From Bacteroides bouchesdurhonensis (GTDB lineage Bacteria > Bacteroidota > Bacteroidia > Bacteroidales > Bacteroidaceae), in NCBI RefSeq assembly GCF_900155865.1, contig NZ_LT707006.1:4318577-4382576 (forward strand): a stretch of 64,000 bases of DNA, in the 5' to 3' direction. The notes under the pieces were generated by a model, which was not told where the DNA came from, did not search any database, and saw nothing but the letters and a program-made list of their open reading frames with translations. Of this stretch, positions 1,966-64,000 are shown one piece after another. Every line of letters starts with the position of its first letter. The first letter of the stretch is position 1. The position numbers and the translations under genes are program-made.

Positions 1966-4380
1966 TTATTTCTTTATTAAATTAGCAATAGAAGCAATCA
2001 TCATACCCATTGTGCTGAAAGAGGTAGCATATCCCAAAATTTCTCCTATATTGGTTCGCTTCTTTGATTTACTTGGAACAATGATCTCACACCCAGGCTC
2101 AATCTGCTTCTTTCCATTTCCTTTTACCTTGGTTATCTGCCCATTCATATACACAATAAACTTCTTACTCTTCTTCGCATTCTCTGAATAACCACCAGAC
2201 TGATTCAAATAATAATCAATATCCTTACCTTCCAGATAAGAGACTGTATTCGGCATCATCACAGCACCATCGATAGTAACCGTATTTGTATTTTTCGGAA
2301 TAGAAATAACATCGCCTTCGCGTAAAACAATATCAGCAGAACTTTTAGGTTTAGCCAACGCTTTTTCCAAGTCAATACCAACAGTAAAAGTATTCTCTAC
2401 TTCAATTCCTAATGAATCAATCATAGCTTCACCTAACTGACGACGCATCAAACGAATGACATCCCCCATACGTTTTTTCTCACTCGCATTGGCCACACGG
2501 GTCAATTTTGCACCACGCAAATAAGCGTAATTAGTAGTGCCACCGGCTTTGTTGATTAAATCTGATAAACGCTCTTCACGGCTAGTCAATGCATAATTAC
2601 CACTAAATAAGATTTGCCCCTCTATCGCTACATTCTGTTGAGGTTGGTAACCCGGGCTACGACGTACATAAACCTCATCATAAGGTTGGAGTACAAATCC
2701 GGGCTGTCCGTCCACCACAAAGCCATCTTTTAAAGAAAAAGTATACATCTGTCCGATAGTATCATTGTTTACAATACTACGGGGATTCTTGATTCGTCTT
2801 GTCACATCCACACGAACGGTAGAAGCAGCTTCACGTAACCCTCCTGCCTGAATGATCAGATCTTCCAAAGTCATATTATCAGCATAAGGATAAGAATCTG
2901 GTTTAGCGACTTCACCATGAACCGTTATATTACCGCGATCTTCCAGATCGTGAATGCTAGGGATATAAAGAATATCATTCTTCATCAAGGCGATATTGGG
3001 AACTGTACCATCCATGATAGATTTTATATCTATAGGCATTACTTCTGTAGTTAGGTCTTCACGCTGACGATACAAAACAGAACGGTTTAGAAAAGCGTCA
3101 CCGGTTAAACCTTGAGCTTCATTTACCAATTCACGTATAGTATTGAGTTTTCCACTTAGTTGATAGATACCGGGGCGATAAACAGCACCACGAATTTCCA
3201 GTTTATTAGTGAAACGGTTCAGAATGGCTTCGGCAGTAACAACATCACCGTTACGCATCTGATAAACACTATAATCTATATCTTTCACAGTATTTACTTC
3301 GTATTCCTGCCCATTCTGACGAACAACACGCAAAGAACGAGTATAAGAATCGGCTTCAAAACCACCAGCGTATTTAATTAATGTAGAAAGTGTTTCATCT
3401 TTCTTCATCTCAAAACGCATAGGACGTTTTACTTTACCACTGATTTTAACCAAGACTTCATAAGCCGGGACAATAATGACATCACTTTCCTGAAGACGAA
3501 TATCGTCCTGAATATTTCCTTTCATGATAAACTCATAAACATCAACAGTAGCAATCTTCTTTCCATTCCTTACCAGTTGAACATTACGCAAACTTCCGAT
3601 ATTACTTACTCCACCGGCACGATATAACGCATGAAAGACGGTAGAGAAGGAAGAAAGCGCATAAGTACCGGGCTGAACGACTTCTCCCATAATATTAATC
3701 TGGATAGTACGAATATTGCCTAGTGTCAAACGGATATCAGAACTTGGGTCGGTGCTGTTATTCAAGCCATTATAGATTTTATTCAGGGATTTCTTTAAAT
3801 AATCGTTCGCTTCGGAAACCGTTAATCCACTTAGAGAAACAGGACCAATCTTTTGAATATTAATAGTACCTTCCGGAGATATAGCTTGCCGAATAGTATT
3901 TTGGCTGGCTCCCCAAATATCAATGATCACTTCGTCTCCGGGACCCAAACGATAGTTTGAAGGAGTAGCCAGATTGACACTAGGTTCGAAAGTCAGGTTT
4001 CTGGTATTGAAGATATTACGACCAAACACTTGATCTTCACGAGCCAAATCTTGAGTGGTAGGCTGATCTTCCAACATATCGGAAGTGTTCTCCTTCATCT
4101 CTTCACGCAATCGGGATTCATTGACATCCGTTCCGGTAGATTTGGAAGTATTTACATTATTCTGCTTCTCATACAATTCTTTAACGCGAATCGCTTGTTC
4201 TTTGGTCACACCTTTGCGTGCCAATTCAGAAGCTATCTGTTTTTGCTCCTTTCCTTGTTTGATGCCCTCTTTTACATATTCAAGTACTTGCTGATCGCTC
4301 ATGTTTTGAGCCATTAATGCAGAGGTACTCCCTAACATCAAAATGAAAAGAAATAAACTAAATTGTTTTTGTATTTTCAT
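1966..4380 (-). CDS. Wza-like polysaccharide export protein with SLBB domains
   Basis: The 804-residue product begins with a signal peptide (FLFILMLGSTSALMAQ). A charged, glutamine-rich helical region follows (about 30-120), then a polysaccharide export domain (NYRLGPGDEVIIDIWGAS, about 142-240) and several SLBB repeats, each with a motif such as VQPGTYALSS, VYRPGIYQLS or GQILFSGNYALTS. A C-terminal hydrophobic segment is near 785-800. Members form the outer-membrane channel for capsule export. It is about twice the length of E. coli Wza, as is usual for Bacteroidetes because of the extra SLBB units. It lies between upxZ and the chain-length gene. Confidence 0.92.
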   Translation of the reverse strand: MKIQKQFSLFLFILMLGSTSALMAQNMSDQQVLEYVKEGIKQGKEQKQIASELARKGVTKEQAIRVKELYEKQNNVNTSKSTGTDVNESRLREEMKENTSDMLEDQPTTQDLAREDQVFGRNIFNTRNLTFEPSVNLATPSNYRLGPGDEVIIDIWGASQNTIRQAISPEGTINIQKIGPVSLSGLTVSEANDYLKKSLNKIYNGLNNSTDPSSDIRLTLGNIRTIQINIMGEVVQPGTYALSSFSTVFHALYRAGGVSNIGSLRNVQLVRNGKKIATVDVYEFIMKGNIQDDIRLQESDVIIVPAYEVLVKISGKVKRPMRFEMKKDETLSTLIKYAGGFEADSYTRSLRVVRQNGQEYEVNTVKDIDYSVYQMRNGDVVTAEAILNRFTNKLEIRGAVYRPGIYQLSGKLNTIRELVNEAQGLTGDAFLNRSVLYRQREDLTTEVMPIDIKSIMDGTVPNIALMKNDILYIPSIHDLEDRGNITVHGEVAKPDSYPYADNMTLEDLIIQAGGLREAASTVRVDVTRRIKNPRSIVNNDTIGQMYTFSLKDGFVVDGQPGFVLQPYDEVYVRRSPGYQPQQNVAIEGQILFSGNYALTSREERLSDLINKAGGTTNYAYLRGAKLTRVANASEKKRMGDVIRLMRRQLGEAMIDSLGIEVENTFTVGIDLEKALAKPKSSADIVLREGDVISIPKNTNTVTIDGAVMMPNTVSYLEGKDIDYYLNQSGGYSENAKKSKKFIVYMNGQITKVKGNGKKQIEPGCEIIVPSKSKKRTNIGEILGYATSFSTMGMMIASIANLIKK

Positions 4381-61542: not shown

Positions 61543-62427
61543 ATGAAATCATTCATTGCAGCAGTTATCTTGACAGGCATATCACTTAGCGCAAATGCAC
61601 AACTGTTATGGAAAATATCAGGAAACGACCTTGAAAAGCCTTCCTATATAATAGGTACACACCATTTAGCTCCACTCAGTATCAAAGATAGTATTGCCGG
61701 TCTACAAAAAGCATTCGACGAAACGCTGCAAGTATACGGAGAATTGAAAATATCAGATACACAAACACCTGCAGCTATGCAAAGAATGCAAAAGATGATG
61801 ATGACCGAAAGCGATACGACATTAATGTCGCTTCTTTCAGCTGCTGACTTCGAAACAGCTAACAAAATTTGTAAGGAATACCTGAGGATGGACTTGACAC
61901 TGGTACCTAAATTAAAGCCATCCGCTATACAAAATAATATAATAGTAATAGCCTATATAAAACACATCCAGAACTTTAAACCACAAGAACAACTCGATAC
62001 CTATTTTCAGAACCTGGCTATTCAAAAGGGTAAAAAAGTAGAAGGCTTAGAAACAGTAGACTTCCAATTCAACTTGCTATTTAATGGTACTTCATTAAAA
62101 CGCCAGGCACAGTTATTAATGTGTGTACTTAATAATATGGATGAATCAATCGATATCATGAAAAAGGTGACAGATGCCTATTCAAAACAAGATCTGGCTT
62201 CTATGCTCAGCCTCAGCGAAGAGCGCAAAGGAGATCAATGTGATCCACTCCCCGGTGAAGACGATGCTATGATTTACAACCGCAACCAGGCATGGGCAGA
62301 GAAATTACCCAGTATTATGAAAACAGCTCCAACTTTCGTAGCTGTCGGTGCTTTGCATCTTCCGGGTGAAAAAGGAGTGCTAAACTTACTGAAAAAACAA
62401 GGATATACGGTTGAACCTGTAAAATAG
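61543..62427 (+). CDS. TraB/GumN-family protein
   Basis: The 294-residue protein has a signal peptide (about 1-20) and the TraB/GumN pattern: YIIGTHHLAPLSI (first GxxH-like block), ETLQVYGELKI and the late FVAVGALHLPGEKGVLNLL. TraB-family proteins are thought to be metalloproteases of the Tiki/TraB fold; catalysis is not shown for this branch. It follows the NlpC gene by 26 bases. Confidence 0.88.
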   Translation: MKSFIAAVILTGISLSANAQLLWKISGNDLEKPSYIIGTHHLAPLSIKDSIAGLQKAFDETLQVYGELKISDTQTPAAMQRMQKMMMTESDTTLMSLLSAADFETANKICKEYLRMDLTLVPKLKPSAIQNNIIVIAYIKHIQNFKPQEQLDTYFQNLAIQKGKKVEGLETVDFQFNLLFNGTSLKRQAQLLMCVLNNMDESIDIMKKVTDAYSKQDLASMLSLSEERKGDQCDPLPGEDDAMIYNRNQAWAEKLPSIMKTAPTFVAVGALHLPGEKGVLNLLKKQGYTVEPVK

Positions 62428-62441
62428 AAATAGGATTTTAG

Positions 62442-62449
62442 TACTTTTG
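62442..62449 (+). promoter_or_regulatory. -7 box of the HAD phosphatase gene
   Basis: TACTTTTG, a full TAnnTTTG match, ahead of the ATG at 62465. It overlaps an in-frame TTG, which I reject as a start. Confidence 0.65.
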
Positions 62450-62464
62450 CAGAAAAGTTTCCCA

Positions 62465-63103
62465 ATGGACTATAAAACCTATTTATTCGACTTTGACTAT
62501 ACGTTAGCCGATTCATCACGCGGCATTGTTACCTGTTTCAGAATAGTACTTACCCGTCATCAGTACACTGATGTAACTGACGAAGCCATCAAACGGACCA
62601 TCGGTAAAACGTTGGAAGAGTCTTTTAATATCCTCACTGGCATTACAGATCCCGAACAACTAACTGCTTTCCGACTGGAATATAGAAAAGAAGCGGATAT
62701 ACATATGAATGCCAATACGATTCTTTTTCCCGAGACATTGCCTACTCTGAAAGAACTTAAAAAACGGGGAGCACGTATCGGGATCATTTCTACTAAATAT
62801 CGTTTCCGAATACTGGATTATCTGAATAATTACCTTCCGGAAGATTTTTTTGATATTGTTGTCGGTGGAGAAGATGTAAAAACAGCAAAACCATCAGCCG
62901 AAGGAGTACAGTTTGCATTAAAACATCTAAAAAGTACTCAAAAAGAGACTTTATATGTGGGAGACAGCACTGTAGATGCCGAAACAGCCCAAAATGCCGG
63001 AGTAGATTTTGCCGGAGTTCTTAATGGAATGACTACCGCCAACGAACTTAAAGCATACCCTCATCGAATCATTATGAACTCTTTGGCAGAGTTACTAGAC
63101 TAG
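62465..63103 (+). CDS. HAD-superfamily phosphatase (phosphoglycolate/PpaX type)
   Basis: From MDYKTYLFDFDYTLADSSRG the product is 212 residues. HAD motifs are DFDYTLADSS (nucleophile Asp and acid Asp), GIISTK (second motif Thr/Ser), the Lys in EDVKTAKPS and VGDSTVDAETAQNAG (acidic pair). Substrates of this group include phosphoglycolate and pyrophosphate; the exact one is unknown. Its stop is 6 bases before the TGCCA array. Confidence 0.92.
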   Translation: MDYKTYLFDFDYTLADSSRGIVTCFRIVLTRHQYTDVTDEAIKRTIGKTLEESFNILTGITDPEQLTAFRLEYRKEADIHMNANTILFPETLPTLKELKKRGARIGIISTKYRFRILDYLNNYLPEDFFDIVVGGEDVKTAKPSAEGVQFALKHLKSTQKETLYVGDSTVDAETAQNAGVDFAGVLNGMTTANELKAYPHRIIMNSLAELLD

Positions 63104-63109
63104 TATCTC

Positions 63110-63191
63110 TGCCACCGTAGTGGCAGAACCTTGCCAATGTAGTGGCACGACAGTGCCAAGCCTCTGGCACAACTGTGCCAATAAATTGGTA
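63110..63191. repeat. Array of alternating TGCCA/TGGCA pentamers, 11-bp period
   Basis: TGCCA and TGGCA alternate at exactly 11-base steps: 63110, 63121, 63132, 63143, 63154, 63165 and 63176, with a degenerate eighth (TGGTA) at 63187. Every spacer is 6 bases and the spacers differ (CCGTAG, GAACCT, ATGTAG, CGACAG, AGCCTC, CAACTG, ATAAAT), so only the pentamers and spacing are conserved. It starts 6 bases after the HAD gene stop and lies 50 bases upstream of the rplU promoter. Confidence 0.92.
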
Positions 63192-63240
63192 AAGAGTGTA
63201 CAAAGGTTAGAAAGATTACAAATAAAAAAGCAACGAAATA

Positions 63241-63272
63241 TTTGTCACAAACAAATAAAAATAGTACTTTTG
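63241..63272 (+). promoter_or_regulatory. rplU-rpmA promoter
   Basis: TTTG at 63241-63244, a 20-base spacer and TACTTTTG at 63265-63272: both elements of the Bacteroides promoter at ideal spacing. Transcription should begin near 63279. Confidence 0.8.
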
Positions 63273-63278
63273 TGCCCG

Positions 63279-63361
63279 ATTATTCCGCAACGGGTTTAAC
63301 CAAGAGTTCCTTAAGAGATTAAAGACCACCCGCCGGAGCTAACTTATACATTTATTATAAG
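63279..63361 (+). promoter_or_regulatory. rplU mRNA leader, possible autoregulatory element
   Basis: An 83-base leader is long for this window. CCCG (63276-63279) can pair with CGGG (63291-63294), and the overlapping GGGTTTAA region can pair instead with a downstream TTAAAGACCACCC segment, so two folds compete. Ribosomal protein leaders of this kind exist in other phyla; I cannot assign a known family. Confidence 0.35.
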
Positions 63362-63679
63362 ATGTACGCAATTGTAGAAATTAACGGTCAGCAATTTAAA
63401 GCAGAAGCTGGTCAGAAGTTGTTCGTTCACCACATCGAAGGTGCAGAAAACGGTTCAACTGTAGAGTTTGAAAAAGTTCTTTTGGTAGACAAAGACGGAA
63501 ATGTTACTGTAGGTGCCCCTGTAGTAGAAGGTGCTAAAGTTGTTTGCCAAGTCATTTCCAACTTGGTTAAAGGTGACAAAGTTCTTGTTTTCCACAAAAA
63601 AAGAAGAAAAGGTCATAGAAAACTGAACGGTCACCGTCAGCAGTTCACAGAGTTAACAATCACAGAAGTAGTAGCTTAA
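63362..63679 (+). CDS. rplU: 50S ribosomal protein L21
   Basis: The 105-residue protein has the L21 pattern [20 protein letters not shown] at the start and [20 protein letters not shown] with QFTELTI at the end, the 23S rRNA-binding stretch. It is the first gene of the usual rplU-rpmA pair. Confidence 0.98.
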
Positions 63680-63700
63680 TCAATTTAAAAGTAAGAAGAA

Positions 63701-63964
63701 ATGGCACATAAAAAAGGTGTCGGTAGTTCTAAGAACGGCCGCGAATCACATAGCAAAAGATTAGGCGTTAAGATATTTGGTGGCGAAGCTTGCAAAGCAG
63801 GTAACATCATCGTTCGTCAAAGAGGTACTGAATTCCATCCGGGTGAAAACATCGGTATGGGTAAAGACCACACTCTTTTCGCTTTAGTAGATGGTACAGT
63901 AAGTTTCAAGGTAGGTAAGGAAGATAGAAGATATGTTTCTATCGTTCCTGTATCTGAGGCATAA
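63701..63964 (+). CDS. rpmA: 50S ribosomal protein L27
   Basis: The 87-residue protein has [20 protein letters not shown] at the N-terminus, which reaches the peptidyl transferase centre, and the block [15 protein letters not shown]. It begins directly with MAHKKG, without the cleaved extension of Firmicutes L27. It lies 21 bases after rplU. The last 36 bases of the window show no further start. Confidence 0.98.
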
Positions 63965-64000
63965 TCGTACAACTGAAAATAGTTTTAAGAAAGGAGATGT

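Follow-up and report, generated by a model that had tools for sequence, protein, structure and literature searches.

The array between the hydrolase gene and rplU

The window analysed here is a stretch of 64,000 nucleotides from Bacteroides bouchesdurhonensis. In it, a gene for a HAD-like hydrolase (62465..63103, plus strand; Pfam HAD_2, E 1.3e-41) is followed by rplU, which encodes the ribosomal protein L21 (63362..63679, plus strand; Pfam Ribosomal_L21p, E 7.4e-34). A phased array of eight pentamers (63110..63191, no strand assigned) lies between both genes, 6 bp behind the stop codon of the hydrolase gene and 170 bp before the start of rplU. Direct reading of the sequence places the pentamer starts at 63110, 63121, 63132, 63143, 63154, 63165, 63176 and 63187, and the pentamers read TGCCA, TGGCA, TGCCA, TGGCA, TGCCA, TGGCA, TGCCA and TGGTA. 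The first-pass annotation had described eight alternating TGCCA and TGGCA pentamers with a period of exactly 11 bp; the position and the period are exact to the base and seven of the pentamers are as described, but the eighth is TGGTA.

The spacers are six bases long. Those following TGCCA, termed class A, are CCGTAG (63115..63120), ATGTAG (63137..63142), AGCCTC (63159..63164) and ATAAAT (63181..63186). Those following TGGCA, termed class B, are GAACCT (63126..63131), CGACAG (63148..63153) and CAACTG (63170..63175), the latter being a frequent form in the array family. An additional stem of 8 bp on the plus strand (63084..63114), formed by TGGCAGAG (63084-63091) and CTCTGCCA (63107-63114), is paired in the predicted fold. 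It crosses the stop codon of the hydrolase gene and includes the first pentamer, but is located outside the 11-bp register. Its TTTGGCAGAG half at the coding end is present in the array-bearing orthologs from B. faecichinchillae (L021) and B. faecalis (L022) and absent from the array-less ortholog L023.

When the window was scanned without a preset motif for chains of six or more pentamers, each complementary to the next, with steps between 7 and 24, the array (step 11) was the sole site detected. A three-pentamer pattern with up to two mismatches matched six times, always within the array; 100 dinucleotide shuffles gave 0.06 matches on average and never more than 2. The array also folds more stably than dinucleotide shuffles (z -4.6). 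It was scored by a covariance model on both strands (83.0 and 73.4 bits), the training set of 17 arrays including the B. faecalis ortholog. A search of positions 62000-64000 against Rfam gave no match up to E 1. A resemblance of TGGCAC to a sigma-54 promoter was considered and rejected, as the spacing is one base off the consensus.

Copies within and beyond the genus

The window array belongs to a family of unannotated repeats whose copies are dispersed just downstream of genes in Bacteroides and in some related bacteria. In the genome of B. bouchesdurhonensis, the exact three-pentamer pattern gave 30 matches in seven clusters, and a reversed control pattern gave none. Four pentamers with up to three mismatches were found at eight loci, and the covariance model (17 arrays, five of them from this genome) detected nine. 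The ninth (G000:C1:4482395-4482489, about 37 bits) is weak and perhaps decayed.

Throughout the genus, 67 of 158 genomes (48 of 93 among the better genomes) matched four pentamers with up to two mismatches, and 91 gave no match to this pattern. At least three matches per strand were obtained in 56 of the 67 genomes; the remaining 11 had one or two, which could be due to chance. The control pattern matched in 8 of the 158 genomes, with one to three matches per strand. Together with the shuffles of the window, these counts contradict a chance frequency of such arrays, which the first-pass annotation had named as a refuting finding. The family is rarer elsewhere: with the model, 39 of 399 genomes from 10 of 30 genera matched in a family-wide sample (E 1e-6) and 4 of 295, including B. 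bouchesdurhonensis itself, in an order-wide sample, both searches having stricter filters by which weak copies were missed. The number of arrays per genome, calculated as half of the strand-wise model matches at E 1e-8, ranged from about 4 to 22 in ten genomes.

A record of Bacteroides finegoldii contains an array between two convergent genes, and a record of Parabacteroides distasonis also carries one. Two array-bearing records from a plasmid collection (NZ_OY725912.1 and NZ_OY725801.1; L270 and L271) are of the non-mobilizable type, have ordinary metabolic genes beside the array, and may be chromosomal pieces mislabelled as plasmids. None of eight array loci reached the gathering threshold of an Rfam family. 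An exact four-pentamer search of viral contigs yielded 0 matches; with this result and a single weak phage match (E 0.3), a phage or viral origin was rejected. No published description of the array family was found in searches of open-access papers.

In three loci of genome G012 (L248, L249 and L250, at about 2700-3500 of each), a phased array is surrounded by a seemingly non-coding repeat of about 750-840 bp. The copies in L249 and L250 are 97.9% identical over 838 bp, and the copy in L248 is identical to about 90%. Inverted repeats of 120 bp with 93 to 97.5% identity flank the phased array, and related copies with lower or shorter similarity occur in L145, L147, L150 and L151. This repeat looks like a recently moved composite element.

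Length, motif and spacers of the arrays

Eight pentamers were counted in 47 of 88 arrays and 7 to 17 in the others, a count biased by the 92-position model with which most arrays were found. Among the 30 best loci found by the four-pentamer pattern, 13 had eight pentamers. In genome G039, ten pentamers are present in 8 of 16 arrays, and in several arrays the alternation is broken mirror-symmetrically by an outer pair of pentamers.

Across 135 distinct arrays, orthologs counted in, 904 internal pentamers were compared; single changes in TGCCA were distributed very unevenly (T1 1, G2 13, C3 72, C4 11, A5 48). Due to these counts, the motif is best written TGNC(A), with a free middle base. A free middle base would be odd for the arms of a five-pair RNA stem and would be natural for a protein half-site TG-N-CA. 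Rare variants of the middle base were accompanied by the complement at the mirror position in 5 cases (1.6 in shuffles; 8/1000) and at the neighbouring pentamer in 6 cases (2.5 in shuffles; 37/1000), the kinship of arrays being uncontrolled in both counts.

The first-pass annotation had considered the spacers as not conserved. This applies to their letters, which diverge fast, but the spacers are not free of pattern. Class A spacers are asymmetric, reading CCNNAT or its reverse complement, and at either end of the array they tend to be oriented with CC facing outward: in 57 eight-pentamer arrays, the first spacer was forward in 34, reverse in 14 and tied in 9 cases, and the last one in 12, 34 and 11 cases, respectively. 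Class B spacers are near-palindromic, and in most genomes they resemble CANNTG. Which base adjoins the pentamer varies by species: C..G is found in most genomes, G..C in most of genus g8, and A..T predominates in G039 (70 of its 74 class B spacers); some genomes, e.g. G008 and G035, are mixed. Within genomes, the self-complementarity of the spacers showed no excess over expectation, neither for class B (0.75/0.62/0.44; expected 0.78/0.63/0.54) nor for class A (0.28/0.51/0.40; expected 0.43/0.51/0.50).

Pairing between distant spacers was calculated for 46 eight-pentamer arrays. Spacers 1 and 7 were complementary in 4.15 of 6 pairs in comparison to 3.75 expected within genomes; 6 of 10000 permutations were as high, and 20 of 10000 if the two close relatives G010 and G011 were left out. 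This is the best among many spacer pairs compared, and the permutation counts are uncorrected for the number of pairs. The complementarity of spacers 2 and 6 did not exceed expectation (4740/10000), that of spacers 3 and 5 was somewhat below it (222/10000 as low; 821/10000 without G010 and G011), and for spacers 1:5 and 3:7, 182 and 295 of 10000 permutations were as high. Taken together, the array is a loose palindrome whose outer units are able to pair. The mean folding energy of the 46 arrays was -45.2 kcal/mol (mononucleotide shuffles -22.6), and base pairs spanning more than 60 nt occurred in the minimum-energy fold of 27 of them. The earlier statement that selection or generation does not act on a long hairpin is not supported as it stands, in view of these long-range pairs and of the complementarity of spacers 1 and 7.

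The borders of the arrays are partly symmetric. In six arrays of B. bouchesdurhonensis (L029-L034), TG closes the left flank of five, and CA opens the right flank of all six. Some arrays contain, or are extended by, units whose half-sites are TGAAA/TTTCA (or TTTCC/GAAA-like) and which follow the 11-bp register as well. These units were observed in two loci of the same genome (L032 and L034), in the orthologs L127, L120 and L122 and in the G012 loci L147, L150 and L249, and they are kept between the orthologs L032, L127 and L120. They represent either a second, A/T-rich type of half-site or decaying units.

Position relative to genes

Gene context was derived from our own ORF caller. A gene ends toward the array in 76 of 86 arrays with gene context, and in 65 of those 76 the array is located within 100 bp of the stop codon (median 33 bp). 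Twelve of the 86 arrays overlap with a called ORF; they are included in the stop-codon distances and excluded, like arrays without a neighbouring gene, from the orientation counts. According to these counts, 35 of 73 arrays lie between convergent, 32 between tandem and 6 between divergent genes, in comparison to 11 convergent, 63 tandem and 46 divergent among 120 other intergenic regions of the same loci. For the convergent excess (35/73 vs 11/120), p is 1.7e-9, orthologous arrays being counted separately. Of the tandem arrays, 28 of 32 are nearer to the stop codon than to the following start.

A run of at least five T within 40 nt downstream of the array was present once among 93 cases. When 100 nt of sequence outside the array were inspected, TTTTT was rarer at array-bearing ends (13/84) than at other gene ends (30/89; p 0.008). 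A stricter test for a hairpin plus T-run gave no difference between both groups (17/84 array-bearing vs 16/89 other gene ends).

Evolution of the arrays

In 13 homologous pairs sharing no array, pentamers differed at 27 of 520 positions (5.2%) and spacers at 104 of 544 (19.1%), and the flanks differed at 228 of 2103 intergenic (10.8%) and 213 of 4100 coding positions (5.2%). Spacers thus diverge faster than intergenic DNA, and pentamers change like coding DNA. The intergenic flanks contained 57 indels, in comparison to no register-breaking indel in 1064 array bases; the array indels observed were two of exactly 11 bp and one compensating pair resulting from the alignment of a spacer inversion. 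Both arrays of each pair had been detected by at least six pentamers in register, so that these counts understate pentamer change and hide register breaks. With 24 of the original 31 homologous pairs, after the seven pairs consisting of copies inside genome G012 had been left out, the differences were 43/955 in pentamers, 165/998 in spacers and 528/4886 in intergenic DNA. The contrast between pentamers and spacers and the kept register suggest selection on the motif and on its helical phase. The substitution and indel counts are in agreement with the earlier proposal that selection or generation acts on pentamers and spacing and leaves the spacer letters free. A period lost in orthologous loci, the second refuting finding named earlier, was not observed where the array exists, e.g. 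in L021 and L022.

The presence of arrays at orthologous sites is variable. For the locus L131, a flank search matched 62 genomes, of which 30 loci were listed, read and scanned for in-register arrays. Among these listed matches, 9 of 30 orthologs carry an array, with 7 to 9 pentamers each. All nine belong to the 15 orthologs with at least 81% gene identity; an in-register array is absent from the other six of these 15, one of which (L281) contains a truncated remnant, and from all 15 more distant orthologs listed. The site in L023, orthologous to that of the window array, has no array. Elsewhere, ten pentamers in B. bouchesdurhonensis correspond to one hairpin in G010 (a difference of 88 bp, plus 3 bp beside it), and eight pentamers in G011 correspond to one hairpin in B. 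bouchesdurhonensis (66 bp); the array lengths differ by whole 11-bp steps. No copy looks essential, since some orthologous sites lack the array, have lost it or retain a shortened one. The idea of a seed hairpin growing into arrays was rejected: the solo-hairpin pattern (one mismatch) occurred at seven places in 5 of 15 genomes, and six of these lie at arrays or at the shrunken site in G010, the seventh being G039:C1:1291880.

Strong changes were seen in 21 of 193 spacers compared. Two of the 21 are inversions between close relatives with intact arms. The window spacer CCGTAG is the exact reverse complement of CTACGG in the B. faecichinchillae ortholog (6/6 bases), which indicates a loop inversion, and TCCCGG at position 3724345 of the B. 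bouchesdurhonensis genome corresponds to CTGGGA (5/6 bases). According to a study in yeast, polymerase template switching between short inverted repeats homogenises their arms and inverts the spacers (PMC8604942).

Comparison with known systems

CRISPR direct repeats have a length of roughly 20-40 bp, and their spacers are non-homologous. The arrays share with them short repeats and variable spacers of fixed length, but they consist of 5-bp inverted repeats with 6-bp spacers whose class patterns are shared within and between genomes, and they occur as many small arrays at gene ends. Like intrinsic (Rho-independent) terminators, they have the potential for a stable stem right after stop codons; in contrast to these, they as a rule lack a T-run. 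An intrinsic terminator was rejected on the basis of the T-run count (1/93); in the hairpin-plus-T test, terminator-like sites were present at 17 of 84 array-bearing ends, as at other gene ends. The array had already been judged to be neither a CRISPR, its units being far too short, nor a terminator, and both exclusions are supported by the repeat length and the T-run count.

REPs and BIMEs are described as extragenic palindromes whose orientation alternates and which are scattered 3' of coding regions and between genes that converge (PMC3733652, PMC2817692). The arrays are likewise extragenic, palindromic, alternating, dispersed and mostly located 3' of genes. They differ in their unit, which is a 5-bp half-site per 11 bp instead of a palindrome of 20-40 bp with a common consensus, and in that spacers change while motif and register stay, so that what the copies have in common are the TGNCA half-sites, species-specific edges and loosely defined spacer classes. 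They are also less numerous (about 4 to 22 per genome in the ten genomes counted) than REPs, for which more than 100 copies are usual. A search for the Y1 transposase (RAYT, PF01797) gave 0 matches in G000 (B. bouchesdurhonensis), G003, G008, G010, G011 and G012 and 2 in G039. A RAYT-driven REP was rejected, as six of these seven array-rich genomes have no Y1 transposase and no unit of 20-40 bp is shared. Of the three readings offered by the first-pass annotation (a phased protein-binding array, a string of small RNA hairpins in the 3' untranslated region, and a replicating repeat like REP), the last one is the least supported, because its own genome has no Y1 transposase; what stands of it is the dispersal and the partly REP-like place at gene ends.

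MITEs and IS-derived elements are also short and dispersed, with partly symmetric ends. The lengths of the arrays, in contrast, differ by whole 11-bp steps, and neither a target duplication nor a clean empty site nor a Y1 transposase was found at the few sites examined. Template switching predicts spacer inversions like those observed in the arrays (PMC8604942); it is, however, a mutation process and not an element, and leaves place, register and motif unexplained.

Possible function and alternative explanations

We lean, with some reserve, toward the explanation that the arrays are a gene-end element resembling BIMEs and bound by a protein, which occurs in Bacteroides and some related bacteria and is kept by selection on the half-site and the helical phase. 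The array would be composed of TGNCA half-sites alternating in orientation once per helical turn, with a 22-bp unit that is often present four times. The half-sites would lie on one face of the DNA and would be filled cooperatively by dimers of a putative sequence-specific protein. The bound protein might block or end transcription from both sides and thereby separate neighbouring units, as was suggested for BIMEs. Unit slippage and template switching between inverted pentamers would alter the array length and scramble the spacers, and selection would retain motif and phase. Beyond the observed dispersal, place, constraint, stepwise length changes and two spacer inversions, we infer the putative binding protein and its action on transcription. 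The location behind stop codons, the convergent bias, the constraint, the free middle base, the species dialects and the few T-runs argue for this protein model. The complementarity of spacers 1 and 7 and the mirror-matched variants of the middle base suit a paired structure instead, and the lack of the pattern in 91 of the 158 genomes, the lost or shrunken arrays at orthologous sites and the equal outcome of the stricter terminator test also count against it.

Nearly as likely is a structured RNA at the 3' end of the transcript, in the form of a long imperfect hairpin with paired outer units or of a row of short ones. It is possible to this degree because outer pairing exceeds chance and the pitch of A-form RNA is similar, at about 11 bp per turn, so that the 11-bp period does not decide between DNA and RNA. 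Such a structure in the 3' untranslated region would shield the mRNA 3' end or aid Rho termination, as reported for REPs. The proximity to stop codons and the convergent bias are in agreement with it, as are the folding energies of the arrays in general and of the window array in particular, the array-specific complementarity of spacers 1 and 7, the mirrored orientation of the class A spacers and the mirror-matched middle bases. Yet the loop of a short hairpin need not have exactly six bases, and no register-breaking indel was seen (a detection-biased count) while the spacers change fastest; furthermore, the 5-bp arm varies most at its middle position. In 17 arrays, the counting of base pairs revealed no covariation in the four local hairpins (0 pairs changed on both sides). 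In 32 sense-oriented tandem arrays, changes keeping a G-U pair (A-type TGTCA 3, B-type TGGTA 2, A-type TGCTA 1) were no commoner than pair-breaking ones (A-type TGACA 6, B-type TGTCA 5, B-type TGACA 2). Complementarity does not exceed expectation for spacers 2 and 6 and lies somewhat below it for spacers 3 and 5, and no Rfam family matched positions 62000-64000 of the window or the eight array loci. It is unlikely that the arrays are instead a selfish miniature element, spread by a putative transposase or recombinase, for which gene ends would be the least harmful insertion sites. The dispersed copies with their partly symmetric edges, the presence and absence at one locus across species (arrays in 9 of 30 flank-found orthologs among the matches listed), the species dialects, which resemble diverging repeat families, and the G012 arrays embedded in larger repeated elements with long inverted repeats would fit such an element. 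The few aligned array-poor sites, in contrast, comprised no empty site with a target duplication, but two arrays shrunk to one hairpin, one truncated remnant and two larger or unclear replacements (L196 and L023), one of these two being a larger deletion. The Y1 search was negative in six of seven array-rich genomes, including that of B. bouchesdurhonensis, no exact four-pentamer match was found in viral contigs, and arrays persist at orthologous loci with pentamers changing as slowly as coding DNA. A complete lack of function is very improbable; in this case, mutation alone would maintain the pattern, by template switching that copies the arms of inverted pentamers onto each other and inverts the spacers. 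The two clear spacer inversions, the divergence of spacers beyond that of intergenic DNA and the process reported from yeast are compatible with it, but the place at stop codons, the convergent bias and the common length of eight are left unexplained; the pentamer is constant across species while the adjacent bases change by species, and inversions account for only 2 of the 21 strongly changed spacers (193 compared). Selfish spread and pure template switching explain parts of the observations, but not place, register and constraint jointly.

A more far-reaching form of the protein model is possible, though less likely than not. The arrays might represent a class of gene-end punctuation in Bacteroidales that was not described before, in which a protein would polymerise along one DNA face on TGNCA half-sites one helical turn apart and stop or insulate transcription on both sides. 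Recognition of the neighbouring bases would have diverged between species and given rise to the dialects.

Implications

Bacteroides are dominant gut bacteria, and in the ten genomes counted, from several up to some twenty genes of each genome end at an array. Due to the strict register and the fast-changing spacers, the DNA and RNA models are separable by spacing mutants. In a study on B. thetaiotaomicron, transcript boundaries were deduced using predicted intrinsic terminators (PMC7366714). If it is true that the arrays end or insulate transcription without a T-run, the prediction of transcript ends in this genus would change, and the arrays would be a lead to a new DNA- or RNA-binding factor.
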